Shown: positions 5,744 to 42,069 of the stretch, piece after piece
Numbering within the stretch: the first letter of the stretch is position 1
Layout of the letters: every line of letters starts with the position of its first letter
NCBI RefSeq assembly: GCF_029227915.1
Contig: NC_079884.1
Coordinates: 7,068,001 to 7,132,000, forward strand
Length of the DNA: 64,000 nt
Source: Hydractinia symbiolongicarpus
Taxonomy: Eukaryota > Cnidaria > Hydrozoa > Anthoathecata > Hydractiniidae
Direction: 5' to 3'
Notes under the pieces: model-generated
Told to the model about the DNA's origin: nothing
Database searches by the model: none
Seen by the model: only the letters and a program-made list of their open reading frames with translations
Translations under genes and position numbers: made by a program

Positions 5744-6270
5744 AGGACTGATGTACCACATTCTGTTATTTGTCCAAAACTATTTCGGCTATGAGGATCA
5801 AATAAATAAACTTGTGGGTGACCCCTAATTATAGCAAAACTAACGCCGCTTATAATGCCCAACATTCCTCGTCCTTTATCGGAATGTGATGAATTATGAA
5901 ATGTGCGCAAGGTAGTGCTATTATCTGTAACAATATGAGAAATATTTTCTAAACTTTGTATTTGTATCACATTGTTTTCAGCAGTCAAACTATTTGGGAG
6001 GTCACTTGCACTCAAGTACTGGTTTGTGTAACCCAAGCTCGTGTACAACTTTGTTCCTTCGCTGAGGATATGATCAAAATCACCTGGGTTGCAAAAAGAA
6101 ACCTTTTCAATAACCAACCAAACGACCGCAAACAGGGAATTACACATACATTGTGTGCCAATAAAAGTTCCGAGCCTGACATCCCATTGATGAAAAGATT
6201 CTTGTACCGACTTTAAAACAGAGTAAGGCCCAGGATTAGTTTCAACATCACTAGACAGTAAAAGAATCAT
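5744..6270 (-). pseudogene. Truncated copy of the 2A-peptidase ORF
   Basis: This is the duplicate of the N-terminal 176 codons of the Helitron peptidase, from the same ATG (6270). It keeps the 2A-like peptide, the Cys motif and the D-x-H motif, but is cut at the duplication junction. Past the junction the frame runs about 25 codons into unit-1 sequence (5665-5743) and stops. It lacks the C-terminal part of the domain and the basic tail. If transcribed it would give a truncated protein, so it is treated as a by-product of the duplication. Confidence 0.85.
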
Positions 6271-8720
6271 TTCGCGGCAGCTTCTTTACGCGTGATTTAC
6301 AATAGCAGTGTTGACGTGAGACCAAGGAAAACTAGAGAAACCTCTGTCATATTATTTAAAAAACACAAGTTTTTCGGCAGGCTTAATATATTTAGTAAGT
6401 TCACCAATAAGTAACCAATATGCTTACCAAATTTAATTTAAATTTAATTTAAAGTTCAGTAGTCTAAATATCTGATTGTCTGAATATATAGCTTTTATAC
6501 TCTGTCGAGTTTCTTCTTCTTTATACTCTGTCCAGTGATGGTTGTCGAACCTAAAAAATAAGAAAAAGTGATTCATTGCGTGCATAATTTCTTTACGCCT
6601 AAATATTTATGCGGCTATTAAAGCTTTCCTCCAACCCCCAAATATGTTTTACCCTTAAAACGGTTATAAAATGCTAGTAAGCCTGTTGAAATCATGTCCT
6701 ACATATTCTGGTCTTCAGGTTAGCCTGTTGTATAAGTATACATACGGGTTACCAATAACTCGTTTATATAATATTTACCTATTAAACACCTGCGTGCAAA
6801 ATATTCAGGTCCCATATCTTTCAGAGACTATTGCCTATTACGTGAAACTACGCCTAAAAATCTCTATGAAACCATTATAATGGGGAAAATATAATAACTC
6901 TTGTTAGGAATATCTTTAGAACTTGAAACATACAAATTAACTTTGTTTTATTATGAAGACTCATTTTGCTTTTTTTGGTCACGTAATTAATCCGATTTCC
7001 CGATTTTTTCAAATTTTACCCCAAAATCAAAAAAAAAGGATTTGCGGCAATATTCGTCAGTTTTTCATCTAATCAATGTAAAAACCAAAAAATATGTTAA
7101 AAAAACTTTTATTTACCTTTCAGAACCTTCAAGCAGAACTTAAAAATTCGCTCGCGTAGTGAGGTAATTGAATTTTAAGCAGATAGTGGTATTTTGAACA
7201 ACTTTTAAGATTTTGATGACGTCAAAAAAAATTGCTGCCGCAAGCAAAATTTTATTCCTGCCATTTTCTTCCTTTTGTGACGTACTATAGGTAAGTTTGA
7301 TTCTATTTGGACAAACCTATAAAACGTTATTGAGGGGGAAGGGGGTGGGCGAATTAAGCCCCTGGTCATATTATGTTCGAATAAACCTGGACCGAGTGGG
7401 TTAAGGAAACAAGGGTTTAAAACTTTTGCTGACATCAGACACAAAACTTGATCCAAAAATTTGTTTACCTATTGCATTTATGTATAGGGTGAAACTTTTA
7501 TGTAGGAAATATCTTGGATCACGTGCTTTTGACAAACGGCTAAAGCTGACATCAGCAAAGTCACTCCTTAAAGAACAAAAAAAGTTGTATACCTGTTGCC
7601 TTTATCGTAAAAATCTGAAAGCACTTATCAAGACAATGTATAGCATTTTTGGTGACTTTATCAAAGTTTCGATTCTGAACTTACCAATTTGGTCCCAGGG
7701 TGCTGCTAGTTGCCAAGACAGTAAAAGATGGCTGACGTCACCACGCCTTTTTAAAGTTATTTGGCCTCAAAGCTATGATTTCCTTGTAATAGATTCACTA
7801 ATTTAAATTTTAGTTATTTGTGTTAAATGTATATACATGTTACTTACGTCATGACATTCCATTTGACAATTAACATTTGAGATATCTTTGATGACTTCAA
7901 AAAAATAATATTCACTTTGCCACGCACAAGCAGACACAACTTTTGTATCATTATAGAGATTTGCTTGTCCTTAAAATCTTACTTGTTTGCTGTTTTCTGA
8001 ATAACCTACACAATTTTTGCAGAATACAAAAAGTTCGACGCAATATTTTTTAACATTCCAGTATTTCACTGATTTACGACCCAACGAGTTAAACTGTCCT
8101 GACTCAAATTAATTTTCTCTAAAGTAGAAGTATAGCTAAATAAAAATGTTGTAAACAAATTTTTCAGCAAATGAATAACGAAAACAACATAGAACGCCGC
8201 AATAACGCAATTCTAGCAGTCGCCATATTTGTTTATAATGATCAGTATAATTGACTGTATTTATGCTCATGGGTTTCAACTTAGTTAAGATGTTGTCAAT
8301 GTTTGGTGTGACTGTTGCGTAGCGGCCAGGCCGTCCTTAATTAATTGTTGGCTTGCCTTTTCCGACTCGTAGTTTTGTTCGAGGGTTGGTCGGTTGGCAG
8401 ATCATTTTTATTACATTTTGGTCAGAAATGTATTATTATTTAATTGTATTACGCTGGGTTTATTTTTTGTACCTCTGGGACATGCACATTACAGTCGCTT
8501 CACTTCAGAAATATTGTTTGTAGTCGTTCTTAGTCCCGATACATATAAATGACTATGGTAGCCGTTTGAAGTGCGCTATCGCGGCTTAATTTGTTGTTTT
8601 GATTATTTGTTTGCTATATTTTGATTTTGATTTAACTATACATATGCGTTATGATAATTTGAATCGGTAGTTTAACTTTTTTGGGGGTCGGAAATTGCCG
8701 AAATACTGGGAACATAAAAG
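5744..8720. repeat. Tandem duplication, unit 2
   Basis: Second copy of the 2.98-kb unit. Its left end starts inside the peptidase reading frame (from aggactgatgtacc), and its right end continues into the unduplicated remainder of the MITE. Apart from the peptidase fragment, the unit (unit-1 coordinates 3289-5344) has no open reading frame resembling a known protein. Small frames at 3689-3898, 4223-4474 and 4444-4824 and their twins have no recognisable domain and look like chance ORFs. Confidence 0.95.
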
Positions 8721-14156: not shown

Positions 14157-15785
14157 AAAATAAATTAATAATATTTTAATTAATTGAATAATTTTTTTAA
14201 ATAAATGAATAATATCTTAAATAATTGAATAATATTTTAAATAAATGAATAATATTTTAAATAAATGAATAATATTTTAAATAAATGGATAATATTTTAA
14301 ATAAATGAAAAATATTTTAAATAAATGAATAATATTTTAAATAAATGAATAATATTTTAAATAAATGGATAATATTTTAAATAAATGAATAATATTTTAA
14401 AAGAATGAATAATATTTTAAATAAATGGATAATATTTTAAATAAATGAATAATATTTTAAAAGAATGAATAATATTTTAAATAAATGGATAATATTTTAA
14501 ATAAATGAATAATATTTTAAATAAATGAATAATATTTTAAATAAATGAATAATATTTTAAATAAATGAATAATATTTTAAAAGAATGAATAATATTTTAA
14601 ATAAATGAATAATATTTTAAATAAATGAATAATATTTTAAATAAATGAATAATATTTTAAATAAATGAATAATATTTTGAATAAATGAATAATATTTTAA
14701 ATAAATGAATAATATTTTAAATAAATGAATAATATTTTAAATAAATGAATAATATTTTAAATAAATGAATAATATTTTAAATAAATGAATAATATTTTAA
14801 ATAAATGAATAATATTTTAAAAGAATGAATAATATTTTAAATAAATGAATAATATTTTAAATAAATGAATAATATTTTAAATAAATGAATAATATTTTAA
14901 AAGAATGAATAATATTTTAAATAAATGAATAATATTTTAAATAAATGAATAATATTTTAAATAAATGGATAATATTTTAAATAAATGAATAATATTTTAA
15001 ATAAATGAATAATATTTTAAATAAATGGATAATATTTTAAATAAATGGATAATATTTTATATAAATGGATAATATTTTATATAAATGGATAATATTTTAT
15101 ATAAATGGATAATATTTTAAATAAATGGATAATATTTTAAATAAATGAATAATATTTTAAATAAATGAATAATATTTTAAATAAATGAATAATATTTTAA
15201 ATAAATGAATAATATTTTAAATAAATGAATAATATTTTAAATAAATGGATAATATTTTAAAAGAATGAATAATATTTTAAATAAATGAATAATATTTTAA
15301 ATAAATGAATAATATTTTAAAAGAATGAATAATATTTTAAATAAATGAATAATATTTTAAAAGAATGAATAATATTTTAAATAAATGAATAATATTTTAA
15401 AAGAATGAATAATATTTTAAATAAATGAATAATATTTTAAATAAATGAATAATATTTTAAATAAATGAATAATATTTTAAATAAATGAATAATATTTTAA
15501 AAGAATGAATAATATTTTAAATAAATGAATAATATTTTAAATAAATGAATAATATTTTAAATAAATGAATAATATTTTAAATAAATGAATAATATTTTAA
15601 ATAAATGAATAATATTTTAAATAAATGGATAATATTTTAAATAAATGGATAATATTTTATATAAATGGATAATATTTTATATAAATGGATAATATTTTAT
15701 ATAAATGGATAATATTTTATATAAATGGATAATATTTTAAATAAATGAATAATATTTTAAATAAATGAATAATATTTTAAAAGAA
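14157..15785. repeat. 20-bp minisatellite, about 81 units
   Basis: Tandem array of the 20-mer ataaatgaataatattttaa, in strict 20-base phase over about 1.63 kb. Recurrent variants are ataaatggat, aagaatgaat and the ending ttttat. The first four units are the most diverged. Variants recur in blocks; a three-unit aagaatg / ataaatgg / ataaatga pattern near 14400-14520 and a run of ttttat/atgg units appear near both 15050-15120 and 15610-15720, suggesting higher-order duplications. Nearly pure A+T. Confidence 0.97.
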
Positions 15786-15922: not shown

Positions 15923-16143
15923 TCATTCAGTTACAGACTTCATTCCCAATTTAGGTTTTATGCTGTCGTTCGCAACTTGTTTGCCATCATTGTCACTATC
16001 GTCATCTATTTCTCCATCATTACTATTTTCATCAGGCAACCGTTCTTTTACTTCTTCTTCCGTTTCATGATCGTCTTTGCCTACTTCGTCTATTTTATTT
16101 TCTTCTACTTCTTTTGCTAAATTTTCTTCATGCTGCTGCAACT
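15923..16143 (-). CDS. Terminal exon of the minus-strand toxin-like gene, acidic tail
   Basis: The minus strand has the acceptor ctag|ag at 16144-16145, then 73 codons rich in Glu and Asp ending in TGA at 15923. The exon begins with two bases that complete a phase-1 codon, matching the phase-1 donor of the exon at 17181. An AATAAA polyadenylation signal lies about 25 bases past the stop (minus strand, near 15890). The tail is highly acidic (EVEEN, HETEEEVKE, DDDSDNDG) and is predicted to be disordered. I do not recognise a domain. It is read as the 3' end of the gene whose other exons lie at 17181-28116. Confidence 0.5.
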
Positions 16144-17180
16144 CTAGATAAAATATTTCAAAAAATACGAATTCAAGATTAATTTTACCACCGCTTATCT
16201 GTTGTGTTAGAAGTAAGTGTTTAGTGTGAGAGACAAGATAATGTTAAATAAATTTAAGATGGTAAAATACTTGTAAGGTCTCCTGAAATATATTTGCGTT
16301 TATCCTTCTTACAAATCGATTATTAAAAAAAATTGTGAGAATTATCAGCCGAATTCGCAACAAAAACCCGCAAGATTAACCCACCATTCTCTTTTACTGC
16401 TAATGTAATGGAAAACTTTAAATGAGAATATGCAGATATGATGTTACCCATGGAGAAAAAACACGAGGAGAAGTAACTCGTTTATAGGCAAGTTAACTAG
16501 ATTTAAAAATGTATGCAACTTTGTTTTTGCACCAACATAAACAAAAACAACACAAAAATTTACATTTTGCGAAAATAGAAAGATTTTCAAAACAATGGAA
16601 AAAAAACTACAAGAAAAGAAAACTACGATAACTTCTTGGTTACACTTTCAGCTTGTTCTTAAAAACTTTCTTTGACCAAAAATATTTTTCTTCATTTCCT
16701 GATTACATAAAATATTAAAATAATTGAATATATTTAGCAACTTCAGATCTTATACAATAAACAATTTGGGATCTGGCCAAAGTCATTTTGCGGTATAATT
16801 TTTTTTAATTTCTTTCTACTGATAGTTTGGGTGGATTTTCCTTCACTAGGTCTGTAACAGACAGAGAGTAACAAGGGTTGAGGAAGGGCTATGTTTTTCG
16901 TTAAAATTGTGTTATTAGACCTTATTTAAAAAAAAAGCTTTTTATTTACTCTGAAATTTTTGCTGGAAAGTAGTGTCACATGTACACTTGTACTCATGTT
17001 TTAAAAACTTTTATTAGGGTGTAAATATTTCATTTCATTTACTTTACTTTTTTTAATATTCCAATTTTTACCAAAATATTGTTTTAAAGACAAAATTTTA
17101 ACTACAAATAAGGCTGGTGGAGTATACCCAATGACTCTTTTAAAACAGAAGTTAATAAAAATAAATTAAAAATAAATTAC

Positions 17181-17792
17181 CTGTTGATATCTGGCACGAC
17201 ATTGGAACCTCTGAATTTTTAAGCTTTGTCTTAAATAACACAGCTCTTGTCTTAAAATGTGAGAAAAATCCACCTTGAATATTCTTTAAATTTTCTTCAA
17301 CTCCATACCCTAAGAGGCGTCTGCTTTTAGATTCTCCAAAACAGAGCAGTAATTCAATTGGTTGTGGTACAAGTATTGAAGCAATATCATACTTGCATTT
17401 TCGGAAAAACTTCCCCTCATACACCATATGTGTATCCACGCCATTTTTTCGTTCATCCGGTATTGATTGCAGACATATTCCTTCTAAATTAGGTTTACTG
17501 CAGTATTGCACTAGATTACCTTCATCAGTAGGATCAACATTGTTGCTGAGTATTGTAACACTTTTCCAGTATTTTGCACACATTTGCAAATTATTGACAA
17601 AATATGGTCCCACAATGGTGATGGAATGACTAGCTTTTTCACTTTGCAATTTAATTTTAATATTATCTGGTACCCAGATTGACTGTAGTTTGCTTTTTGT
17701 AATATCGACTTTGTGAATATTACTTAACTGGATCACCTTGTTGGTTTGGTACGAGATGCCACGTGGTAGGACATTATCGCACCAATTGTGTG
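17181..17792 (-). CDS. Exon with crystallin-like repeats (minus-strand toxin-like gene)
   Basis: 612-nt minus-strand exon open throughout, bounded by acceptor tttttcttag|ca and donor acag|gtaatt, phase 1 at both ends. It encodes two similar units of about 50 residues. The first contains S-I-W-V-P-D-N, then I-T-I-V-G-P-Y and a W-K-S-V-T-I-L strand (about residues 35-80 of the exon). The second contains A-S-I-L-V-P, then R-L-L-G-Y-G (about 140-185). The I-x-V-P start, central G-P/Y and final strand recall beta/gamma-crystallin-like motifs, and spacer exon Y fits the same pattern. Several Cys residues suggest an extracellular protein. The family name is an inference. Confidence 0.55.
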
Positions 17793-18097
17793 CTAAGAAA
17801 AATAAAAAAAAATATTTTTGTCTAAAACAACTCACGCTTCTTGTTTCAAGTAACACGTGGCTTGAATCCTTAAAGTAGGTCTAACGGAAGTGTGTAAAGA
17901 TGAAGAAAAAAAGCAGAAGCATGATTTATACAAAGAAAGTTCTCGAAATTTCATATTAAAAAAGTTTAGATTCGCACACTAGCGTAACTAAACACTCTTT
18001 GGTTTGGGAGTTGGACTAAGAGATTAAAAGGGGTGGTGATAGAGCTGAGAGTTCTCTAAAACTAAATAAGCGGGTATATTGAAATTTTATATTTTCA

Positions 18098-18124
18098 CTA
18101 GCTGTTTCCCGTGGAAGAATCCAC
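18098..18124 (-). other. Helitron-type 3' terminus (hairpin + CTAG), left arm
   Basis: Read on the minus strand the arm ends GTGGA-TTCT-TCCAC (hairpin), nine bases, then CTAG followed by a T. This is the canonical Helitron 3' end: a short hairpin 8-12 nt before CTRR, with insertion before T. Confidence 0.65.
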
Positions 18125-18479
18125 TGTATTCCATTTAATTTATGTAGCAGATATATGTCCCTCAAAAAACAAACAATACAGCAGTGCGCATCTTACATCT
18201 GCATTATTATATAAATGACCAAAAAAATTAAAGGTTTTCAACAACTGCAGTATTTATGTGACATTTAAATTTAAATCTACTAAAATTACTTGCTCTGACC
18301 ATCTGACAAATGCGAAAATTATTCGGAAAGAAGTTTCCAAAAGCATTTCAACATACATGTCACCCATAAAATTTAAATCACTCAAAACGCCACATATATA
18401 CAAAAAAGCTGATCAATGTCAAACACAAATCTCTCTCATTGTATATGTTAAAATCAGTTAGTTTATTGCAAACCCTGCC

Positions 18480-19800
18480 AAAGGTTGACACACAATGTGA
18501 AAAATAAACAATAAATTGTGCCTCTGACAGAATTTTTTATCTAAGGTGTAAAAAAAGGGATTTGCAAGGACAAATTATAATGCAATAAAACATTATTTGA
18601 TATATTGCATACAGTCCTTCCTCACCAAACTTTAGACAAAATGCCAACAAAATAACATTGTTTAAATCTAAAATTAATAAAGTCCTTTTAGCAATTTGCA
18701 TGCTGTTTTACCATCAATAGAGTAAACAAAATTTCAAATCTCACATAGTATTCTGTCACAAATTTTCATAAAATATATATATAAGTCATAATGAGTCATG
18801 TTAAACAACAGCAATCAATCTGTATATAAGTTCATTTTATGTCAATTTTTGCACCAATTTTGCAACACAAAATACAAATTCTAAATAATACTAAAATCTC
18901 TTATTTTGGTCCTTCGCATACCGACGGTCTCCCACAAAAGTTTAATCAAAATGTAAAAAATGAGAGGTAACGACAAAATCAAAGTTTGCAAAATTTAACT
19001 ATTTCAGTACATACATCTACTGCATATGCCCTCTAAAACAATATTTTAATCCAAAATGCCAAAGAAAAACAGTTTGCAACAAAAATCAGTTATTTCGATA
19101 ATATTGCATACACTCTTTCCTCACAAAAGCTTCACAAACTGTAAAAAAAAGAATGGTTGTAGGGAGTGCTTCTGATTCAACAAAAAAAGTTTTTTTGACA
19201 TATTGCATCTAGCCCTTACCCATTAAATCTTACACAAAATTTCCAAACCTATATACGATTTAGAACACATCAAATTTAAATCGAGAAGGATCAGTCATTT
19301 CGATATATTGCACAGAGTCCTCCCCAGTAAGAATTTATACAAAGCTTGCAAGGTGTAAAATTGAATTCTTCTTCTGTGTATATATATATGGTCCTTCCTC
19401 GCAAAATTAACATAAAATGTCAAAAAGGTTCAGATATAACATCTAACGCAACAAAAAACAGTTCTGTCAGTATATGTCATGCCATTGTCTTCCACCAAAT
19501 GTTCCCCTTAAAGTTTCACAGACACAGCCTGTAAATTAAAAACAACTAAGATCAGGTATTTTGGTCTATTTCATACCATTCTGTTCCAAATAACTTATAA
19601 AATGTAAAAATTGAGTGGTAAAACAGAAATGTCAAAAAGAAGAAAAAAATAGCTTACAAAGAGTATAAAATTAAAATCAACAAAGTAGCTCTTTTGGTGT
19701 ATTAAATATAAGCCATACGCACAAAAGTTTACACTAAATGTAAGAAAATGGTTGTGTTTAGTAATTCTAAATTAAGAAAAGTCAGTTCTTTTAGCATGCT
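18480..19800 (+). repeat. Diverged tandem repeat of about 80-110 bp inside the arm
   Basis: A recurring pattern of the type tattgcatac-x-tccttcctca-caaaa-ttta-caaaatg...aa appears roughly every 80-110 bases, for example near 18600, 18910, 19100, 19200, 19310 and 19390. Units are strongly diverged, so the array is old. The same array is present inverted in the right arm (about 23980-25310). Confidence 0.6.
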
Positions 19801-21428
19801 GATTAAGGTTTTTGCCCACAATTTGAAACAAATTAAATTTACATTTTAAAAATAAGTAATTTCTGAACTTTATTTTCAGAATATTTGGAGGAAAAGAACT
19901 TCGCAAACCAAAAAAAACCCAGGAAAATTGTTTAAAATTTTCAGGGTTAATAACGTTTGATGTGTTTTGTGGGATTATATATACTGGGAATCTTTAGTTT
20001 AAAGCTAGCATTAGCTAGCTACAGCAGCTAATAGCTAGTCACTTAAATATAAACTGGAGACTTAGCTAGGTATAAAGAACATGGCTACATATATATATAT
20101 ATTCCTAGCTAGCTAGCTAGTTGTTGGTGGTTGGCTTTTTATGATGCTAGCTATAAAACATGTCTGGCAACAATAATATAATCAAAACTGAAAATAAAAC
20201 ATGAAAAAACCTTACAGAACCTTGCTATGATTAATTTATAAAACCATGCTCTTCTTCAAATGTTTTTTTAAAGATTTATTTTGAATGAAAGAGTGGAGAA
20301 TACTCAAAAAGAACAGCCATCTTTTTCGTAAACACAATTTCCGTTTTATGCTGGGAGCTTCATTTAACAGTCCGTATGCTTTGTGAATATCTAATACCGT
20401 TTCATATGTAGCGATACCTATATATATATGCTAACATAGAGTTTTTTGGCATAAGGGTATATATATTTGTATCGTTATTAGCAGCGAGTTATATATTTAC
20501 ACCTTATGTGCGATATCTATGAAGTACATCCCTAATCTTTTTAGTTAAATTTTAGCGTACAGCCACGTCATAAGAAAGTGACCCGTGATTTCCGTGTCGT
20601 GGACTCACAGTTTTACTCACGCAAGGGAATTAATATATAAGATTTCACATTTTTTAACGTTCTTTCCTCCACGAACTAGGTTTGTTTTTATCCTGCGCAA
20701 ATGTGATTCGTCAATTAAGCAAAATGTCAATCATCACTACGGAAATAAAGCTGAACTGATTCGCCGAATATACCTACAATGTCAGATTTGATAAATTAAG
20801 ATATAAAGACGAACATAACTTTCTTATGTAAATACACCATCAAACAAACATGTGTCCCGAAATAAGTGTCATATGCCATTTAAAACAAGAAGTTTGCGGC
20901 TCCTAGTTTTGGGTAGTATGTTAGTATTGCACGAAGCAATTTAGCTTTCATAAAAAACTCGCTGCAGTTATTATTTCTAGACCGCATTTAACATCATTTG
21001 ACTTAAAACCGCCCTTCCTCCCAAATTCTTTTAATAACCTCAAGAGCGTGGATTGAAATCAAGCGACTTCTTATCATACTTAGTTTTGATATAACACCAC
21101 GTCTGATGACTCATCGGCTTCCAGCAGAAGTTAAACATTGCGCGTATAAACTAATTAGGAATTCGGTTATAAAATTCGGGTTAAGATAGGTTAAATTTTA
21201 TTGAGGGAGATATGCATATGGAGAGAATTAAAGAAGTTCATCTTTATGGATCCATTATTCGCAAAAACTAGTGTCCATCGAAAGGTTTTTTTCTTAAACT
21301 AACGAAAAAAAGTGACAAAATCTCTTTCTACGAAAGTTATTTTTCTAATTAACATGTACACTTAGGCTAGAAACTCTAACGGGCAGGGTTGGACAGTGCT
21401 TAGACCTCGGACTCTTAAATCTCTTTAG

Positions 21429-21552
21429 GCATTTCAAGGAAATGAAAAAAGTGGAAAGATTTACGAATTTGCAAGTAAAGTCCATAAAAAGGCAATCTTT
21501 GTACCCTATGATAAAGAGGTGTACATCAGTGAAACCAAGTTAGCCAATCCAA
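21429..21552 (+). CDS. Exon X in the inverted-repeat spacer
   Basis: A 124-nt open stretch lies between acceptor ctctttag|gc and donor ccaa|gtaagt. It reads in one frame from phase 0 to phase 1 and encodes about 41 residues, including a V-H-K-K-A-I-F-V-P-Y-D segment. The A-I-F-V-P start resembles the S-I-W-V-P and A-S-I-L-V-P repeat starts in the minus-strand exon at 17181-17792. The other two frames carry stops. No upstream plus-strand partner exon was found. If the spacer were inverted, this exon would follow the exon at 26614-27139 (ending in phase 0) with matching phase. Confidence 0.55.
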
Positions 21553-22223
21553 GTAAGTAATTTAATATGTTGATACATTTTAATATTCCTGCTGGACTAC
21601 GCGGGACTCTTTAATTCTTGGGGGATAAAGGGGGGATGGTGTTGAGCGTCCCCTTCCCCTTCTGTAATTTCTCAAATTGTTTTTCATTGAACATGTAGCT
21701 CGCCACAAATGTTGACCAGGTCAACACGAAAGCCAATTATTTTAATTTAAAGATTCGTAAAATATTTGGATATCTACTTGCGTACTTAAAAATTCAATAA
21801 GCAAAAAATAATGTAGCAATACGGATAATAATAAATATATTTTTGATTTCAACGAGAAACAAAATATTATGTAGCGAATTTTTCGAAGTAAAATTAAAAC
21901 AAACGGTATTGCGCATGCTTAGAAACATTTTGTCGGCGAATTCGCCGTCTAGGTTGATTCGTCGAAATCCGTCCTAAATCTTTTAAAAACATTTTATTCG
22001 TTGAAAATAATCCTGTAGGATTTCATTCAAATTGAAAAAATGGCTGGAACACTTTGATATATTTTGCCAAACGAAATAGGGAAAATTATAGCTAAGTAAA
22101 AGTGAGAAAAGTGACATAATCTCTAGATAGAGGAAAGTGAATAAATTATTTAAACCTGTTTTTGCAAACTTTGGCTAACTGGCACTTTGTCTAACACCTA
22201 AACTCTTCAATTATTAATTTTAG

Positions 22224-22358
22224 CATTGACTCAAATGAAGGGCCCGTATCGTGGAATGGCTTTGTATTCCAGTAAAAAAAAATTCGAATTCATTCAAATT
22301 GCATACCTTTCTATCGAAGAACATGAAGAGACTTTTCATTCTATAAGAATATGCACAG
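22224..22358 (+). CDS. Exon Y in the inverted-repeat spacer
   Basis: 135-nt open stretch between acceptor aattttag|ca and donor acag|gtagga, phase 1 at both ends, continuing the frame of exon X. It encodes an M-K-G-P-Y-R-G-M motif that, with exon X, completes one crystallin-like repeat (compare I-V-G-P-Y in the 17181 exon). Its phase-1 end fits the phase-1 start of the minus-strand exon 17181-17792, and no other plus-strand partner is visible downstream. This supports the view that X and Y belong to the minus-strand gene and are flipped in this assembly or allele. Confidence 0.55.
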
Positions 22359-22716
22359 GTAGGAATGTTTTGTGGTGTTATTGTTTGCTTAACTTCTTTA
22401 AAGATTTTTGCAAATTATTTGATTGTTAAAATAACTTATTGCTTCTCAACCTTTTTAAGAAGGTTGGAATTAAAAGGGGCTATCCATATATTTAATATGT
22501 CTTGGACAGGCTGTTTTGTATGAAATTTTTTTCACAACTTTTTTGGGCAACGCATAAGGATTAAAGTTGCTCAGGTTTCTCTTTTTCTCAAGCTTAATTC
22601 TGCTTTTTCGTTTCTTCTGATTTTACACTTAAGGTCCAATGCACGTATTTAGTCGCTTTCTTATTCCTATTAAACAATTTAATACTAACTAGTAAAGAAG
22701 TATCTTCCAAATATTC

Positions 22717-25695
22717 TGATTTCAATCCACGCTCTTGAGGTTATTAAAAGAATTTAAGAGGAAGAAGGGCGGTTTTAAGTCAAATGATGTTAAATGCGGT
22801 CTAGAAATAATAACTGCAGCGAGTTTTTTATGAAAGCTAAATTGCTTCGTGCAATACTAACATACTACCCAAAACTAGGAGCCGCAAACTTCTTGTTTTA
22901 AATGGCATATGACACTTATTTCGGGACACATGTTTGTTTGATGGTGTATTTACATAAGAAAGTTATGTTCGTCTTTATATCTTAATTTATCAAATCTGAC
23001 ATTGTAGGTATATTCGGCGAATCAGTTCAGCTTTATTTCCGTAGTGATGATTGACATTTTGCTTAATTGACGAATCACATTTGCGCAGGATAAAAACAAA
23101 CCTAGTTCGTGGAGGAAAGAACGTTAAAAAATGTGAAATCTTATATATTAATTCCCTTGCGTGAGTAAAACTGTGAGTCCACGACACGGAAATCACGGGT
23201 CACTTTCTTATGACGTGGCTGTACGCTAAAATTTAACTAAAAAGATTAGGGATGTACTTCATAGATATCGCACATAAGGTGTAAATATATAACTCGCTGC
23301 TAATAACGATATAAATATATATACCCTTATGCCAAAAAACTCTATGTTAGCATATATATATAGGTATCGCTACATATGAAACGGTATTAGATATTCACAA
23401 AGCATACGGACTGTTAAATGAAGCTCCCAGCATAAAACGGAAATTGTGTTTACGAAAAAGATGGCTGTTCTTTTTGAGTATTCTCCACTCTTTCATTCAA
23501 AATAAATCTTTAAAAAAACATTTGAAGAAGAGCATGGTTTTATAAATTAATCATAGCAAGGTTCTGTAAGGTTTTTTCATGTTTTATTTTCAGTTTTGAT
23601 TATATTATTGTTGCCAGACATGTTTTATAGCTAGCATCATAAAAAGCCAACCACCAACAACTAGCTAGCTAGCTAGGAATATATATATATATGTAGCCAT
23701 GTTCTTTATACCTAGCTAAGTCTCCAGTTTATATTTAAGTGACTAGCTATTAGCTGCTGTAGCTAGCTAATGCTAGCTTTAAACTAAAGATTCCCAGTAT
23801 ATATAATCCCACAAAACACATCAAACGTTATTAACCCTGAAAATTTTAAACAATTTTCCTGGGTTTTTTTTGGTTTGCGAAGTTCTTTTCCTCCAAATAT
23901 TCTGAAAATAAAGTTCAGAAATTACTTATTTTTAAAATGTAAATTTAATTTGTTTCAAATTGTGGGCAAAAACCTTAATCAGCATGCTAAAAGAACTGAC
24001 TTTTCTTAATTTAGAATTACTAAACACAACCATTTTCTTACATTTAGTGTAAACGTTTGTGCGTATGGCTTATATTTAATACACCAAAAGAGCTACTTTG
24101 TTGATTTTAATTTTATACTCTTTGTAAGCTATTTTTTTCTTCTTTTTGACATTTCTGTTTTACCACTCAATTTTTACATTTTATAAGTTATTTGGAACAG
24201 AATGGTATGAAATAGACCAAAATACCTGATCTTAGTTGTTTTTAATTTACAGGCTGTGTCTGTGAAACTTTAAGGGGAACATTTGGTGGAAGACAATGGC
24301 ATGACATATACTGACAGAACTGTTTTTTGTTGCGTTAGATGTTATATCTGAACCTTTTTGACATTTTATGTTAATTTTGCGAGGAAGGACCATATATATA
24401 TACACAGAAGAAGAATTCAATTTTACACCTTGCAAGCTTTGTATAAATTCTTACTGGGGAGGACTCCGTGCAATATATCGAAATGACTGATCCTTCTCGA
24501 TTTAAATTTGATGTGTTCTAAATCGTATATAGGTTTGGAAATTTTGTGTAAGATTTAATGGGTAAGGGCTAGATGCAATATGTCAAAAAAACTTTTTTTG
24601 TTGAATCAGAAGCACTCCCTACAACCATTCTTTTTTTTACAGTTTGTGAAGCTTTTGTGAGGAAATAGTGTATGCAATATTATCGAAATAACTGATTTTT
24701 GTTGCAAACTGTTTTTTTTTTGGCATTTTGGATTAAAATATTGTTTTAGAGGGCATATGCAGTAGATATATGTACTGAAATAGTTAAATTTTGCAAACTT
24801 TGATTTTGTTGTTACCTCTCATTTTTTACATTTTGATTAAACTTTTGTGGGAGACCGTCGGTATGCGAAGGACCAAAATAAGAGATTTTAGTATTATTTA
24901 GAATTTGTATTTTGTGTTGCAAAATTGGTGCAAAAATTGACATAAAATGAACTTATATATAGAATGATTGCTGTTGTTTAACATGACTCATTATGACTTA
25001 TATATATATTTTATGAAAATTTGTGACAGAATATTATGTGAGATTTGAAATTTTGTTTACTTTATTGATGGTAAAACAGCATGCAAATTGCTAAAAGGAC
25101 TTTATTAATTTTAGATTTAAACACCGTTTTTTTGTTGGCATTTTGTCTAAAGTTTGGTGAGGAAGGACTGTATGCAATATATCAAATAATATTTTATTGC
25201 ATTATTTGTCCTTGCAAATCCCTTTTTTTACACCTTAGATAAAAAATTCTGTCAGAGGCACAATTTATTGTTTATTATTAATTTATTGTTTCACACTGTG
25301 TGTCAACCTTTGGCAGGGTTTGCAATAAACTAACTGATTTTAACATATACAATGAGAGAGATTTGTGTTTGACATTGATCAGCTTTTTTGTATATATGTG
25401 GCGTTTTAAGTGATTTAAATTTTATGGGTGAGATGTATGTTGAAATGCTTTTGGAAACTTCTTTCCGAATAATTTTCGCATTTGTCAGATGGTCAAAGCA
25501 AGTAATTTTAGTAGATTTAGATTTTAAATGTCACATAAATACTGCAGTTGTTGAAAACCTTTAATTTTTTTGGTCATTTATATAATAATGCAGATGTAAG
25601 ATGCGCACTGCTGTATTTTTTGTTTTTTGATGGACATATATCTGCTACATAAATTAAATGGAATACAGTGGATTCTTCCACGGGAAACAGCTAGT
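22717..25695. repeat. Long inverted repeat, right arm
   Basis: 2979 bp, the reverse complement of 18097-21061. Small differences (for example gtttgtgcg versus agtttacact-side changes near 24055, and an extra tttattatta block near 25275) show that the copies have diverged slightly, so this is not a simple assembly mirror artefact. The outer end is gggaaacagctagt. Confidence 0.97.
25668..25694 (+). other. Helitron-type 3' terminus, right arm
   Basis: Plus strand: GTGGA-TTCT-TCCAC hairpin, then gggaaacag and CTAG, followed by host T. This is the same terminus as at the left arm, pointing outward in the opposite direction. Confidence 0.65.
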
Positions 25696-25699
25696 ATAA

Positions 25700-26610
25700 G
25701 AATAATTAGCTAACGAAAGGTAGCTAAAATAAAAATCTGACTGAAAATGATGCTTAGCTATCTAACTTTTGCTCAAAAAAAAATTTTCGCTTCAACTTCC
25801 TAACATTGTTCTTAAAACTCCAAAATGTGTCTAGCACTGCACTCTCTCTACCTAAAATACGGAAACTTTTCACCTCCAAAAAATTGTTATGACGTCAAAC
25901 CGAATCACCAAACATTGTGTCTAACGCCAAAAACGCTGCACTAATTACATTTCGTAAGTACATGTTTTGTCAGATTGCCCAGACGGTTAGAAATGCCAAG
26001 TGATCAACTTTAGTAAAAAATTGAAATAGTTAAAAAATATTGTGTGATTAAGGCGGAGTTGGCATACTACTTACGAAAAATAAGGCCTTAGTGTATTTTC
26101 ATTCCGGGTTTTGTTAAAAGTAAGGTTAAAAATACAAATTTAGGGAAATTGAATTACTTACTTTTTCGTTAGCTCTGTCACCAATCTAAAACAAATATAA
26201 ACCATTGTAGTTATTTAGAATTTGGTTAAATAAATAAATAAAGGACGCGAGATTGATACCTTTAGGTGGCATTAACCCTGTTAAAATCAGGAAGATTTTT
26301 TTTCAAGTAATTGGTTGCTTAATGTAATTTTTAGATTATACAAAAATTTGCGTAATTATAAAAAAAAAATCGTTCATAACAACAAGGATGCCACGTAATG
26401 TAGACACCTTTATAACGTTCTTTACACTATGACAAGGTATGCGGACATATTTTCATTCTGTATCTTTTTCTTCAGTGTAGCATGTAATAGTTACATCTGA
26501 TCTTATCTTGTTTCTTTCTGCGTAAAATAACTAAACTGAGTAAACACTTAAATTTCTGAGCTTCAAGGTATGCTTCATTAAATGGAAAACAAATAAATGT
26601 TGAGATTACA
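25700..26610. other. Intron of the minus-strand gene, outside the arm
   Basis: No repeat or coding sequence recognised. It separates the right arm from the donor at 26613. AT-rich. Confidence 0.5.
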
Positions 26611-26613
26611 AAC

Positions 26614-27139
26614 CGCAGAACATAGAGTAGCTGTTAGATCGTCGCACAAGTATATGGTCTTGAAAAATTGACTTTTTGATTTGTCAGCATCGAAATGCCC
26701 CATAAGGTTTCTGATAAAGAATTGAATATTTTTATATTGACCAGGTGTTCTCATGACAGCGGAGAAAATTTTATTATTTGGTCCAGCTTTAACCAGATTT
26801 ATCAAAAATTCAAATGATATATAATCTTCATCAAATGTTTGATTAAGCTTCTGTTTAACTTCATCTGTATCTTCATAGGACGCAAAAACTAGCAAGCAGT
26901 AGGCAGATCTGAATGCTACAAAAGCGTCTACCAGTTTCAAGCATTCCTCGTTTCTAGTCTTATCTGAACAGGCACTCCTTAAATCTTGATCAAACTTATA
27001 TTTAATATTTTCCAATTCCGTTATATATTTTTTTCTTTGTTCCCAACTTTCTGTTGTGTCTCCGATTCTTCCTATGACAAATTCAAGTTTTCCTTGCAAT
27101 TCTTTCCGAATTTGCTCTGTACCAAATTCTTGTAAAGCC
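26614..27139 (-). CDS. Helical exon of the minus-strand toxin-like gene
   Basis: 526-nt exon: acceptor atacttag|gg, donor gcg|gtttgt (weak; an alternative gtttgt|gtaatc-type site is three to four bases further). It encodes about 175 residues, mostly amphipathic helix (K-E-L-Q-G-K-L-E-F-V-I-G-R and similar), with a few Cys, and no low-complexity sequence. It continues in frame from the exon at 27352-27478. A long helical bundle preceded by a hydrophobic, Gly-rich helix fits the N-terminal region of delta-endotoxin-like pore formers, including the cnidarian jellyfish-toxin family. That family call is tentative and rests on architecture and one motif, not alignment. Confidence 0.5.
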
Positions 27140-27351
27140 CTAAGTATGAAAATATATTTTACCGAATTCATAAGCACATAAAAACATAATGCAATACTAG
27201 CCAATGTAATGTTTTAATTTTTTTTTTCATCAGGTAAGAGTGTATATAAAACATATGATACGTTGTATCAACACTTTTATATTCACAAGAGTTTTAACAG
27301 AGCTCGTGACTTGATGTACTATTTAATGAAATTGATTTATGACTGACTTAC

Positions 27352-27478
27352 GTCTTTAATGGATCTCTCACATCTTTTGGTTTCATAACAGCAATAGCCA
27401 TGGCTAACAAATTGAGAATTTGGGGAACAATTGGTACTGCAAGGAATGCAGTAATTCCAGACGCTATTTTAAGCACTC
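27352..27478 (-). CDS. Hydrophobic-helix exon of the minus-strand toxin-like gene
   Basis: 127-nt exon between acceptor tttttcag|ga and an ideal donor aagac|gtaagt, phase 1 in and phase 2 out, open throughout. It encodes a hydrophobic stretch (A-S-G-I-T-A-F-L-A-V-P-I-V-P, then L-L-A-M-A-I-A-V-M) of the kind found as a membrane-inserting helix. Together with the end of the previous exon it gives a D-P-Y-Q-I-T-S-G, then I-A-S-G-I-T pattern reminiscent of the N-terminal domain of jellyfish pore-forming toxins. Function not demonstrated. Confidence 0.55.
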
Positions 27479-27859
27479 CTGAAAAATAAATGCCAATAAT
27501 CTTAGAATTGACCTTGATAAGTCATCACATAGTGTGTTTTGGCAAGTAGGAAGTTACTAGGTCTACTGCAGTTCTGGATAAAGCAATTGACCGTAATATC
27601 CTAGGTGGTGATGGAGGGGAGGGTGTAAAAAGCCATTGATGAATGAATGGTTGGGTCACGTGACATACATACTAATTTAAACAGAACATTACGTAACGTA
27701 CAAACGCGACCTACGCAAATTGTTTTACGTTCATTCCTTCTTCACTTTGTTCTTATTTGTTTCTTTGCTTATAGCTTTATCGCCAATTTTTTGATGGCCT
27801 ATCGCCCTCTCCTCTTTAGGGAGGCTGTTAATAATTTAAACTTGCAATATTGAACTTAC

Positions 27860-28116
27860 CACTTGTAATTTGATATGGATCGCCACTTTTAATTCCTACT
27901 ACAAAGTCCTTTACTCCAGCTCCTACAGTAGTATAAGCCTTATTTTGCTTCAGCTTCAAATCTTTTTTATCCAATTTGTCTGAAATGACCTGTACTTCAT
28001 CACTTAATTTTTTTTCAGCACTTTCATCTCCCAAGCTTTGGAAAAATTTCTTGACATCGGCAAACTGATTTATAAAAGCTGACTTGGTGACCGAAATTAA
28101 AATCAACACGAACAAG
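27860..28116 (-). CDS. 5' exon of the minus-strand toxin-like gene, possible signal sequence
   Basis: Minus-strand open stretch ending at a strong donor (aagtg|gtaagt, phase 1). It starts with a hydrophobic run S-L-F-V-L-I-L-I-S-V (about 28120-28090), which could be the core of a secretion signal, followed by about 75 residues of Lys-rich helix. An acceptor-like ctttttag at 28117 precedes it. The frame also stays open to an ATG at 28325, so whether this is the first exon and where translation begins is unresolved. The next exon joins in phase. Confidence 0.5.
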
Positions 28117-28353
28117 CTAAAAGAAAAGACAGAAGTGGTTTCGTTAGGTAAAGAATTCCTTGCTATTTTTATTTGTCTATCGAAATATTTCTTTAACAAA
28201 TACGCCAAAATTCGATCGCGCGAACCGGAAAAAGTAAGTAAGAAGCCTCGTGCCTTTAACAATTTCCGCAAGGAAGGTGATAAAACGTGACAAGTAAAAA
28301 AACTTTGAATCGAATGACTCAACATGAAAACTAAGAGATTTTTGCTTGAATTG

Positions 28354-29699: not shown

Positions 29700-31540
29700 C
29701 TGCAAAATTTTTTGTGGTTTAATGGCTAATGAGAACAAATTTTCGCAAAATTTTCTCAAAAAAAAATAAAAATTCACGAGAAGCTATTAACGTGAAGTGA
29801 CCAAGGCCCAGAATTTCGCGAGAATTAAATTTCGTCAAAAATTTTTTTCGGGGCTTCTATTTTTGAATCAATATTTAGATCTGAAGTTGCTTTTTGGTTG
29901 CTTAAATTTATATAACTAATTTTGGTAACTTATGTAAGAAGGAAAGAAAAGATAAAAGGAAGACGCATTTTTGGTAAAAGAAAGTTCTTGAAAAAAACCT
30001 AAAGTGTGCAACAAAGAAGTTTTTTGTAGTTTTGGATTTTTAGTTTTTTATTGGGAAAATTTATTTTCTATTTTCCCAAGAAAACATTTTTGTGTTACTT
30101 GTTACATAAATCTACTTAACTTGCTTATAAACGACTTTCATATAACAAAAATCGTGTACTAAAAAAGGTTGCTTCTCCTGGTGTTTTTCCTCTATGTATG
30201 TAAAATTACCTTAGGAGTAATAGAGAATGATGAATTAATCTGCAGTCTTATACTTTGCGAATTTATCTGACATTTTTCACAAAGATGTCTCCAAAGAAAA
30301 AGTACACTGTACGGAACTGAGCTGACTAAATAATTTATCAAATCCAGTTCCATTTTTTATAAACTTGGAGAAAAGAAAACTCGAGTTGCAAACGAGTTGT
30401 TTTTAAGGAAAGTTTATATTCAGCGTCAGTCGTTCCTGAAATACAATAAAACAAACAAAAAACAAAATTTGCGAGAATAAATTTACGCAGAATTCGCGAA
30501 TAGAGCGTTTTTTCAATAACTTTTAATTAATAATTCGCAAAATTCATAAAAAAATTCGATATTCGCAAAAATTAATTCCCTTTAGGCATAAAAATGTAAA
30601 AAAAAAAAATCGTTAAATGTCGCTACTGCAAAACAACGCAGAATGAAAGCGATTGCAAATCCCACAAATAAATTGATGAGCAAAATAGAAAATAAATTTG
30701 GTTTACCCGTTATTACTTTCCTCGCCAGCTTCACGCTTTGAGCCTAGTTTTCAAGATTCTCTACAGCTTCTTCTAGGCGTGTGACAAGCGCTAACACCCT
30801 CGAAATTGTTATCGATTAAACTTGATTTTTGATAACAGAGCAGACAAATACAATTTGATGAAATCATACTGTTTACCTATGTATAAATGCGTTGAAATAA
30901 AATAAAAATAAAAAACTGAATTCTTACGTCGTGTATATAATGCCCCTCCTCATTGTCCAATTTTTTCTTCTAGGTTAGCTACTTTTGTTGAAATGTAAAC
31001 TTGTGAATGAGTTAAGAATGTATTAAAGTCTCTTTCATTGAATATTTTGATTTATAGGCTTTAGTCTATACCCCCTTAATCAGCCACAGTTGGATTGGTT
31101 CATGTGTACCTAATATTCTGTTAATTCAGGGGGTGTAAATTTATTTGAGTGTTTTTTGCATGTTTGCAATTTCTTTTTGCGTGTGAACATCTTTATTTTA
31201 CCAATGCAATTATATTCATGTCCGAAAATCGAAGACTCACTAGAGTGTAAGCGATCAAACTATGTTATGAAAAATTTACGCATGAGAGAGTAACATGAAT
31301 TTCGGATATTTTTTTTATTATTATCATTTTTAAGCCTGATTTTTCAGACAATTAAACCCTTTTTTACACTTCAAATTCTTTCAAAATTCAATCTACCAAT
31401 TTACTTTTTATTTATTTTATTCAATTCTTTGCGAGTTAACAAAGAACAGATATTTCAATCTAAAGCAAAAAACGAATAAGATAAAAACATTGTGGCTTCA
31501 CGATAAAATACCAATATTAGGACCAACAATGAGTATGTTT
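29700..31540. other. Non-coding stretch with TTCGCGAA-type words
   Basis: Clusters of cgcgaa/ttcgcaaaa words at 29730-29850 and 30460-30590 in opposed orientation may mark the ends of another short inverted-repeat element, but no clean terminal repeat could be aligned. No coding sequence recognised. Confidence 0.4.
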
Positions 31541-36440: not shown

Positions 36441-36629
36441 GTCAAAATTACGAAAATGACCGAATAGGGTTAATGTATATATCATTAAATACTAACACAT
36501 AATCATATTAAATAATATAAATAACGTCATGCGCAATAGCATATATGCTATTATACAGAATATGAGTAAAAATTATCATGACCGTGCCAGAAAAATTGCT
36601 GATTGAAAAAATTATATATAATAAAGGAG

Positions 36630-39600
36630 ATGGATTTAAATTCAAATACTGTAAAACAATTACATATAATTGCAAAAACACGTGGGCTTACGGGTTATTC
36701 AAAATTACGCAAAGCAGATCTTATTCATTCTCACCACAAGCCATGGAAATTTTTGAAAAACAAGAGATGGCTAGATACCGACCTATTAAGAGGAACATCG
36801 AGCCGCATGTACCCACGTTAGAGGAAATGAAGAACTTTGAACGCAAAGAACTGAAAATAACTCATCCAGTAGTCAATAATGAGCTGCGAGAGTGGTCAGA
36901 GTGGCTATTATCACATGTACCGGAGAGTATCAAGAAACCAGTGCAAGGTATATATACATCAGTTAAAAATCGTATCCTCTTACTATATGATGGTGCTAAA
37001 AAGACACTGGTTGGCGAGGTCAAGGAAGAAGCAAGGGAAGATCATGCTTCAGAGCAACCTAATCAAGATTTTTCGCCTCGGGATCATAAGCATGTATTAC
37101 ATAAAACATTTAAGAGTTTCCGCATAGCTGGCATAGATGGAACAGATATTAATGAATATCTTGGTATGATACAATCACATGTAAAAAAATTGATAGAGAA
37201 CCAGGTAGAGGAAATGGGGTCTGCAAAGATACAGATGGATACTATGAAAAAAACAAATCGATGGTACTAACGAGTTCATCGAAGTAGACAAGGTCTCTCA
37301 CAGCAACATGGCATCTATATTCCAGGGAACAAACGTGGATGAAGTGATGGATACGATGTTTGCTCAAATTAAAACGCATGTGGAGAATCCTACATTACCC
37401 AAGAGTGGCTTTAGCATCGGTAGAATTAATAATATGGATATAGATTTTCATAAATTGAAGTTAACGAGAGGTTCATCACATATCGAAACACCAATATGGA
37501 TCTCGATGAAAAAAGCTATGAATAAATCCTATAAATAATGACGAGGAGTGTTTCAAATATGCGATTATCGCCGCCATACATCATGAAGAGATTTGTACAA
37601 ACCATCAAAGGATTAGCAACCTACGGCCATATACGGAGCGGTATAACTGGCAAGGCATTGAATTTCCAACATCCATCAAGGACATCAATAAATTCGAGAA
37701 GAATAACCCAGAGATCGCGGTGAATGTCCTGTATGCAAGAGGTAAGACTTTTAATATCCTCCGTCGATCAACATTTAATGAAAGAGAGAAACAGGTTGAT
37801 CTGCTACTCCTCACGGATGATAAGAAGAGCCACAACGTAGCCATCAAAAATCTATCCAGACTACTAGGAAGCGAGATATCGACGAACCACGGAAAAATGA
37901 GTCTTTGTCTGAATTGCCTTAAGGGATTTCAAACGATAGAATCACGCGATAAACGCTATGCATATTGCAAAGATAATGAAGCTGTAAAGATCACGATGCC
38001 CAGCGAGAAGGAAAAGTGGCTTTACTATCAAGATGGCCAATGCCAGTTCATGGTTCCGTTTGTGATATACGCAGATTTCGAATCCCTACTTATTCCGATG
38101 AAAGAGAATGCTCGCGATATCAAAACTAAGACGCTGAATAAGCATGTACCGTGCGGATGGGCTACATATGCAACATTCGCATATGGAGAAGTGCCAAATC
38201 CTCTAAAAGTATACAGGGACGAAGGGTGCGTAACCCGCTCTGTCAACCACTTGGAGGATGAGGTAAAGCGGCTCTACGCTACCTTTCCACAGAAGCCTAT
38301 GCTACCATTAACGGAGGAGCAAAGGAATGATTATGATGCTGCGGGTGCCTGTCACATCTGCATGAAACCTTTTGGCAATGATGAATATAGCCAAAAAGTT
38401 CGAGACCATTGTCACTACACCGGCTTATACAGAGGCTCTGCGCATGCGATCTGCAACCTTAGATACAAGATACCAAGCCACGTACCCGTAATATTCCACA
38501 ATCTATCAGGGTACGACGCTCAATTATTCATTCGAGAATTGGGCGAAAAATTTGATACTCAGGACATAGGTTGTATCGCAGAGAATACCGAAAAGTATAT
38601 CTCCTTCAATGTAAAAATCAAGGTACCCATTGCAGGTATTGGTGACGGCGAAACGTACAAGAAGATAGAAATCAGATTTATCGACAGCTGTCGCTTTATG
38701 GCATCAAGCTTGGAAAAATTAGCTAATAATCTCGATGATGAACAGTGCAAAAATCTCCGTTGGTATTTCAATGAGGATGACATCTTTAAACTAATGCGTA
38801 GAAAAGGATTTTATGCCTATGAATATATGAATAGCTGGCAACGATTTAAAGAGACTGAGCTACCTACAAAGGAGGCTTTCTATAGCAAGTTGAACATGAA
38901 TGGTATTAGTGATTATGACTATGAGCACGCTCAAAACGTCTGGAATGCTATTACTCCAGAGGACCCAGAGACTACCATGGGTGACTATCATGATATATAT
39001 CTCGCCACAGACGTCCTGTTTCTTGCCGATATCTTTCAGAATTTTCGAGGAGCCTGCTAGAATCAATACAAACTCGACCCTGCTCATTTTTACAGCGCAC
39101 CAGGTTTGGCGTGGAAGGCGGCGTTGAATTACACAGAAATCAAACTGGAGCTGCTAACAGATCCTGACATGCTCCTGATGTTTGAAAAAGGTATTCGAGG
39201 TGGTATCACGCAGAGTGTTCATAGGTACGCGAGGGTCAACAACAAATATATGGGTGATCAATACGACCCGGAGGTTGAGTCGTCATACCTCCAATACCTA
39301 GACGCCAACAACCTGTATGGGTGGGCAATGCAACAGCTTTTGCCTACTCATGGCTTCAATTGGATATCAAAAGTAGAAGTAATAGATGAAAAGAAGATCG
39401 AGAAATTGGTATCTGATAATAAATATGGTTACTTGTTGGATGTTGACGTTGATTATCCGAAGGATTTACACAACAAACACAACGAGCTACCCTTCCTGCC
39501 AGAGCGCAATTTTGTACATAGAGTAGAGAAGCTCATACCAAATTTAGAAAATAAGCGAAAATACGTATTACACATCGGAGCTCTACACCAAGCCTTGAAA

Positions 39601-40520: not shown

Positions 40521-40524
40521 AACA

Positions 40525-40623
40525 ATGGAGGTATTGCTATTGATTGCTATAATTCTTCCATACATATTGATAATTGCCTTCCTATATAGGTACCGCCATA
40601 TAATAAACAGAATGTCTTCATGA
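40525..40623 (+). CDS. Polinton small single-span membrane protein
   Basis: 32 codons starting at an ATG four bases after the polymerase stop. The sequence is an N-terminal hydrophobic helix (L-L-L-I-A-I-I-L-P-Y-I-L-I-I-A-F-L) followed by a short basic tail with R-Y-R-H. Its 3' end overlaps the start of the next gene by 12 bases in another frame. No family recognised. Small membrane proteins of this type are common in Polintons and adintoviruses. A role in virion or membrane interaction would be speculation. Confidence 0.55.
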   Translation: MEVLLLIAIILPYILIIAFLYRYRHIINRMSS

Positions 40624-41100
40624 GCAGAAATTTTCGACGATGTTGTCAATACTCTAGAAGCGCATGAGCAACCCATAGATAAGCGCCAGATTCTCAAAGG
40701 TGCTCGTAAATCGAAGCCACATCTTTTACTGAAAACGTGTACTGAGGCATTCCTGGACAACGTATCACCTGAGGTTATGGAAAAAATATACGTCCAGGTA
40801 GTCGAAAAGAAACTCCATGAGAAAGGAGAAAAAACTGCAAAGGCATCGTCAACTCACGCGATTGGGTTATATAGTAAAACCATAAGCAATTTTGTATCAA
40901 TCGATGATGTAGAGGCTCTCCGTAATGATCTGGAAAATGATTTGATCATCCGCGAAAGTATGACCGATCTTGGAATACTCGTTTACACAGCCTTTGGTCG
41001 ATTCGTCACGCCCTTGCTCGTTGCGGCTCATACAATTAATCATACTAAGCTGTCCAAGGTATCTGAAAAGGTTGATGAAGAGAAAGAAAAAGATAAGTAA
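40612..41100 (+). pseudogene. Polinton conserved hypothetical protein with early TGA
   Basis: Frame from ATG 40612 (after catataataaacaga) to TAA at 41100, 162 codons, with an in-frame TGA at codon 4 (40621), probably a former Trp. The rest is intact: alternating helices with Lys/Glu, a moderately hydrophobic segment (L-G-I-L-V-Y-T-A-F-G-R-F-V-T-P-L-L-V-A), and a charged C-terminus. I do not recognise the family. Translation could restart at the ATG at 40777 (107 residues). It overlaps the next gene by 26 bases. Confidence 0.6.
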
Positions 41101-41398: not shown

Positions 41399-41400
41399 TT

Positions 41401-41422: not shown

Positions 41423-41425
41423 GAA

Positions 41426-41767: not shown

Positions 41768-41780
41768 GCCTATAATAAAC

Positions 41781-42023: not shown

Positions 42024-42034
42024 GCACTTACAAG

Positions 42035-42064: not shown

Positions 42065-42069
42065 AATAA

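Follow-up and report, generated by a model that had tools for sequence, protein, structure and literature searches.

We analysed a window of 64,000 nucleotides of the Hydractinia symbiolongicarpus genome (contig NC_079884.1, here C10, positions 7068001-7132000), in which a gene on the minus strand is interrupted by a pair of inverted repeats enclosing two exons, X and Y, that face the other way (Table 1). The arms occupy positions 18097-21061 (2965 nt) and 22717-25695 (2979 nt) of the window and are 98.5% identical overall. A preliminary description of this DNA had located the arms and the spacer between them correctly, except that the outer arm limits had to be moved to 18097 and 25695. The positions, open frames, and phases that it gave for X and Y were borne out by their splice borders and translation, and it was right that the upstream flanking exon ends in phase 0 and the downstream flanking exon starts in phase 1. 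The exons it listed are real, but it had overlooked a 24-nt exon between the upstream flanking exon and the arms. The spacer was also scanned crudely for open exons of at least 90 nt, requiring a pyrimidine-rich acceptor and a donor of strict pattern; the plus strand returned only X, in two overlapping versions, since the donor of Y is off the strict pattern, and the minus strand returned no open exon. When positions 21400-22400 were searched against the genome (480.9 Mb in 76 contigs), the window itself was the single full-length match; of the 40 short matches, most hit a dispersed repeat located in the intron between X and Y, and one hit the counterpart of exon Y on contig C3.

The RefSeq annotation splits the gene into two loci, LOC130612453 (P0002) and LOC130612449 (P0004), whose proteins match the window piecewise with full identity. 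The LOC130612449 model splices the 24-nt exon directly to position 17792, jumping the whole inverted structure without X and Y, and it enters the downstream flanking exon in a shifted frame with a stop after 19 residues. The LOC130612453 model begins at an internal methionine of that same exon, follows its long frame, and ends near 15926. X and Y together measure 259 nt, or 86 codons and one extra base, and it is by this offset that the two RefSeq readings of the downstream flanking exon differ in frame. In the model, skipping them shifts the frame and brings in the early stop, so that the protein would lose its C-terminal part. The 24-nt exon and the distant first exon make it unlikely that the LOC130612449 model is purely ab initio, and all gene exons examined are still open. 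No protein joining X or Y to either neighbour was found in the protein database within the candidate length windows, which were about 112-355 amino acids for the downstream flanking exon (2 of 63 candidate proteins matched), 275-875 for the upstream one (1 of 198), and 170-541 for Y, for which no candidate shared three 5-residue words.

Comparison with related loci points to the original orientation of X and Y. The downstream flanking exon has eight matches in the genome including the window, two of which are adjacent on C4, leaving six other loci, and an X- or Y-like match lies upstream of it in sense in all six, one of them weak. The closest paralogue, on C3, carries all its main exons on one strand and in one order, and its splice-site phases equal those of the window (0 before X, 1 between X and Y, and 1 before the last exon). 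Since the same exons are found there in sense with the same phases, the phase fit in the window goes beyond chance. The C3 intron that corresponds to the small exon of the window holds three 24-nt candidates, one with good splice sites and similar residues. At three C4 loci (L015, L016, and L018), the homologue of the downstream flanking exon is preceded in sense by a Y-like exon. On C14, one locus (L045) shows matches to the upstream flanking exon, X, and the downstream flanking exon consecutively on one strand, and another (L044) has a weak X-like match (E value [E] 0.02-0.08) upstream in sense. The window copy is the sole one seen with X and Y reversed. By comparison with these paralogues, X and Y are evidently ancestral exons of the minus-strand gene, now inverted relative to their counterparts; that they fit this gene had been proposed in the preliminary description.

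Helitrons begin with TC at the 5′-end and finish with CTRR at the 3′-end, carry a hairpin about 10 nt before the 3′-end, and generate no target-site duplication. Their insertion takes place between A and T (PMC4067079). TC(TTATATATTAATTCCC) and CTAG mark both arms and, of 22 other copies examined, all but one (L029), which has CTAG and lacks the 5′ TC. The right-arm hairpin has a 5-bp stem and a 4-nt loop, followed by 9 nt and CTAG, with a folding energy of -7.0 kcal/mol under RNA parameters. Both arms occupy a site between A and T. In the other copies, as read by eye, a T follows CTAG in 21/21, and the base before TC is A in 15/21, T in five (two of which repeat a duplicated block), and G in one. 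No repeat was evident in the 8-nt flanks of the Helitron copies, and the arms contain no stop-to-stop open reading frame (ORF) of at least 90 amino acids.

A genome search with the left arm, in which the best 40 of 1565 candidates were scored, gave at least 57 matches, two being the arms themselves. Of the 55 other matches listed, 28 span the query from ~410-454 to 2962-2965 and 27 are partial; among those listed, none of the 55 extends inward past query position 410. The inner 419-422 bp of each arm, uncovered by any other listed match, are non-Helitron sequence. The ends and the genome-wide copies thus identify the arms as two separately inserted, putatively non-autonomous Helitrons of ~2.55 kb, in opposite orientation and of different subfamilies, so that copies of one Helitron family stand in opposite orientation at both breakpoints. 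Helentron-type ends, with a site between T and T at the inner arm limit, were considered and dropped, as the genome-wide copies put the true 5′-end ~420 bp further out. Two separate observations concern the same class of elements. Non-autonomous Helitrons would be mobilised by an autonomous Rep/helicase partner, and an ORF with a Helitron_like_N match, of possible kinship to the arms, lies elsewhere in the window (1189-1515). Two stretches of C3 (3730077-3763040 and 9633583-9666546), of equal length (32,964 bp) and ~6 Mb apart, each hold two facing Helitron copies of the arm family, with flanks that match in opposite orientation by eye; they may represent a segmental duplication or an assembly effect.

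To compare the arms with their relatives, we aligned them with 21 other copies, with L029 dropped, and left L034 and L038, which repeat a duplicated block, out of the trees and distances as well. The Helitrons were cut into an outer (18098-19115) and an inner (19116-20643) part at a point chosen after seeing the differences. In the outer part, the arms differ at 19 of 1015 sites (1.9%), exceeding every one of the 171 pairs among the 19 other copies; the left arm groups with L023, L025, L028, and L036 (support 0.983) and is identical to L025 (0/1015 differences, upper limit 0.36%), and the right arm groups with L022 and L024 (0.990). In the inner part, the arms differ at 3 of 1527 sites (0.20%, 95% limits 0.04-0.57%) and are sisters (0.997) adjoining L022 and L024 (0.879). 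The near-identity that the preliminary description attributed to the arms is thus uneven, divergence being higher in the outer Helitron part than in the inner one. Five substitutions and a 3-nt deletion in the inner part are common to both arms and occur in none of the 21 others, with no such variant in the outer part (Fisher p = 2e-4, an optimistic value, as the counts were entered by hand and the cut was chosen post hoc).

The distribution of private substitutions points to the direction of the exchange. Those of the right arm are even, with 4/1015 in the outer part and 6/1527 in the inner part (five of the six shared with the left), which argues for the right copy as the donor, and the left arm has none in the outer part and two in the inner part. 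Aligned over 421 columns, the two copies of the non-Helitron flank show two mismatches and one gap, which all fall in the last 50 or so bases before the inner end. This cluster, at 21014-21022 as compared with the right arm, consists of the two mismatches and a 3-nt indel, whereas the copied flank is otherwise identical; it may stem from errors made in copying at a template switch. Taken together, the alignments indicate that the arms exchanged DNA and that the left was recently overwritten from the right; the recombination between arms suggested in the preliminary description is upheld to this extent. The simplest reading of the mosaic would be two separate insertions, the right one older, followed by right-to-left copying, in that direction only, which continued beyond the Helitron into the flank. 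A single inverted duplication of one element, and a longer Helitron variant with the 420-bp flank captured that inserted twice, were both excluded because the outer parts of the copies are of different subfamilies. A reciprocal crossover as the sole event is insufficient, as one arm only is chimeric.

We consider it very probable that a transposon-mediated micro-inversion took place within this gene recently. X and Y would have been bracketed by two oppositely inserted Helitrons of different subfamilies, the right one earlier and the left one very recently, and the inner left Helitron would then have been overwritten from the right, with ~420 bp of the right flank copied along after homology had ended. 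The mosaic arms testify to the one-way copy, and break repair may have been its cause. Break-induced copying could have run from the left end through the inner part of the right Helitron, its flank, X, and Y before being joined to the right flank; alternatively, conversion could have lengthened the arms and a later crossover flipped the spacer. Both routes would yield the present structure, with an old left flank junction and a new right junction (22716/22717), and in both the exchange between the arms presumably produced the inversion. The divergence left by the exchange (0.20%) is below the estimated species heterozygosity of 1.33% (PMC11067881); the inversion, if made by the arms, would therefore be younger than typical allelic divergence, and the sense form probably still segregates. 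This clock dates the last exchange, not necessarily the first flip, and a later conversion could reset it. Lying 1.65 kb apart and almost matching each other over their inner 1.9 kb, the arms would still be a substrate for flips, and both orientations probably segregate in the species.

Several observations weigh against this account. The left arm alone is chimeric, whereas a plain reciprocal crossover in unconverted arms would make both so, and the inverting step has left no trace of its own. A sense allele of this locus was not seen, and the reversal is a single observation, made on one stretch of one assembly. There are also weak X-like matches in the contrary orientation: at L015 and L016 (E 0.009), where they lie on the opposite strand and are interrupted by stops, and at L045 on the minus strand (E 0.026), at the same C14 place as a match of L019 (E 0.009). 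We dropped those of L015 and L016, and also, as weak, those of L019 and L045, including a third match there (E 0.061).

The same arms could in principle make a reversible exon switch, the cassette flipping often enough for both forms to be present in the species or in one colony and to give full-length and truncated proteins. The length, proximity, and recent homogenisation of the arms speak for this, as do an exchange younger than typical allelic divergence, the open frames and splice sites that X and Y retain, and the recurrent inverted-repeat inversions reported in humans (PMC3961182) and yeast (PMC9731477). However, the second orientation was not seen, positions 21400-22400 being a single full-length copy in one assembly, intact X and Y are expected regardless after so young an event, and no recombinase or regulated site was noticed, although no search aimed at these was made. 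We regard such flipping as possible but doubtful, and recurrent flipping in the germ line, perhaps also in the long-lived stem cells of the colony, so that one clone would contain cells with the full-length and cells with the truncated secreted protein, as improbable. Because the arms are ordinary Helitron copies, nothing seen points to a dedicated switch behind the toggling envisaged in the preliminary description. A little less likely than the reversible cassette is a fixed null allele, in which the inversion broke the gene once and left a pseudogene that is now decaying; the truncated RefSeq model and the annotation of the gene as two loci fit this, but the exons examined are still open, and after so recent an event decay would not be informative in either direction.

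The orientation in the assembly could also be an artefact, with the spacer truly in sense and joined the wrong way between arms whose inner 1.9 kb short reads could not have resolved. The assembly was made from HiFi reads (N50 13.2 kb, 66x) of the male clone 291-10 (PMC10411563), and reads of this length exceed the 7.6-kb structure and should span it. Moreover, the outer arms differ at 19 substitutions plus indels, which provide anchors about 5.6 kb apart, and the RefSeq model likewise skips X and Y. An error of this kind thus appears quite improbable, even more so than recurrent flipping. The least credible possibility, for which we see very little room, is that X and Y are part of another gene on the plus strand within the intron. 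Their splice sites are indeed on the plus strand, but in the paralogues the homologous exons lie in sense, flanked by the same neighbours or next to them, and the protein candidates of about 170-541 amino acids screened for Y offered no match. A micro-inversion between the Helitrons accordingly remains the reading that we prefer.

The nature of the gene product was approached from its parts. Judged by eye, the N-terminal part starts like a signal peptide, and its low-confidence model (predicted local distance difference test [pLDDT] 52) contains helices only. None of five gene pieces, including the downstream flanking exon, X, and Y, exceeded its cut-off in Pfam, where the upstream flanking exon gave DUF6862 at E 0.033, failing the cut-off. 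Among the PDB sequences, the downstream flanking exon had no match and the upstream one had a single match at E 0.28. For the low-confidence model of the downstream flanking exon (pLDDT 53), the top Foldseek match was Protein S (E 0.5, probability 0.23), making a beta-gamma crystallin fold a weak lead; neither of the two models had a fold match at E ≤0.001. The product may resemble cnidarian pore-forming proteins.

Table 1. Features of the interrupted gene, the inverted structure, and the C3 paralogue (window positions unless marked C3)
Feature	Coordinates	Strand	Properties or basis
First coding exon of RefSeq model	30927-30953	-	P0004 residues 1-9
Exon with hydrophobic, signal-peptide-like start (by eye)	27861-28118 (approximate limits)	-	P0004 match
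Coding exon upstream of the upstream flanking exon	27351-27482 (approximate limits)	-	P0004 match
Upstream flanking exon	26614-27139	-	Ends in phase 0; exact part of LOC130612449
24-nt exon	26162-26185	-	Phase 0-0; in LOC130612449; borders TTTTAG / GTAAGT
Right Helitron	23139-25694	+	TC...hairpin-CTAG, site between A and T; groups with L022/L024 throughout; putative donor
Donor copy of non-Helitron flank (putative)	22717-23138 (422 nt)	.	Arm-to-arm alignment
Spacer holding X and Y, inverted	21062-22716 (1655 nt)	.	Between arms
Exon Y	22224-22358	+	Phase 1 to 1, open frame; borders TTTTAG / GTAGGA; antisense to own gene
Exon X	21429-21552	+	Phase 0 to 1, open frame; borders TTTAG / GTAAGT; antisense to own gene
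Homogenised tract, left arm	19116-21061	.	Inner Helitron plus ~419 bp non-Helitron; outer limit between 19116 and 19448
Left Helitron	18098-20642	-	TC...hairpin-CTAG, site between A and T; chimeric, inner part apparently copied from right
Downstream flanking exon	17181-17792	-	Starts in phase 1; used by both RefSeq loci, in different frames
Last coding exon	15926-16144	-	P0002 match
C3 exon-1-like	C3, near 15888601		Genome search
C3 exon-2-like	C3, 15885528-15885400		Genome search
C3 match to upstream flanking exon	C3, 15880712-15880149		Genome search
C3 X-like	C3, 15878886-15878797		In sense; 53% identity over 30 amino acids to X
C3 Y-like	C3, 15878655-15878539		In sense; 62% identity over 39 amino acids to Y
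C3 match to downstream flanking exon	C3, 15877062-15876451		Genome search

The remainder of the window holds other repeats and mobile-element remains. Positions 36566-46023 form, in our own reading, a Polinton-like element, with a GC content of about 39-45% against about 30-35% around it; its ORF at 37522-39060 (plus strand) weakly matches a DNA polymerase B (DNA_pol_B_2, 24.7 bits against a cut-off of 25.8), and the next ORF (39061-40209) and an integrase-like ORF (44002-44586, minus strand) were assigned to it by eye only. A direct tandem duplication of 2.98 kb with 99.9% identity (2762-5736 and 5744-8720) adjoins minus-strand ORFs that are Helitron helicase-like (the one at 1189-1515) and Herpes_teg_N-like (2392-3303). 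Just beyond the 3′-end of the gene, a minisatellite of 81 copies of a 20-bp unit, with a GC content of about 12%, occupies 14158-15781. An ORF at 48155-48571 (minus strand) has an integrase core domain (rve, 35.9 bits), from mobile-element remains.

Among the publications listed, no title or abstract opening names this locus. It would offer a natural and tractable example of exon inversion driven by recombination, in a clonal animal whose colony-level or somatic mosaicism is directly measurable. If both orientations segregate, the locus would provide a measure of how often DNA between mobile-element arms flips in an animal, and it would show that two such elements suffice to make a cassette of coding exons reversible where no dedicated recombinase acts. 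In bacterial invertible switches, the orientation of a short segment between inverted repeats sets the product, and the inversion depends on a site-specific recombinase and short sites. The likeness to our locus is the short segment between inverted repeats whose orientation affects the product, and the difference is the recombinase and its sites, none of which we noticed here, with no search having been aimed at them. A human example of inversion between inverted repeats is given by the F8 intron inversions in haemophilia. Recurrent human inversions also take place between inverted repeats, there of 1.6-24 kb, but they span 5.1-226 kb (PMC3961182), in contrast to the 1.65-kb exon cassette flanked by mobile elements described here. 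The flip/flop of Saccharomyces chromosome XIV likewise involves near-identical, homogenised inverted repeats, although it is reported to turn 24 kb with 15 whole genes between 4-kb gene repeats, both orientations recurring (PMC9731477), whereas here part of one gene lies between mobile elements and the second orientation was not seen. The Galileo inversions of Drosophila buzzatii share with our locus two oppositely oriented copies of one transposon at the breakpoints, and chimeric copies serve there as evidence of ectopic recombination. They are described, however, as chromosomal inversions in which both copies are chimeric and target-site duplications are exchanged (PMC2775673), unlike the 1.65 kb with two exons, the one chimeric copy, and the Helitrons without target-site duplication found here. 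The inverted-repeat inversions known from the cases cited thus range from kilobases up to whole chromosome segments; here, the inverted unit is two complete internal exons, their parental orientation can be read from the paralogues, and the arms still record the direction of copying.

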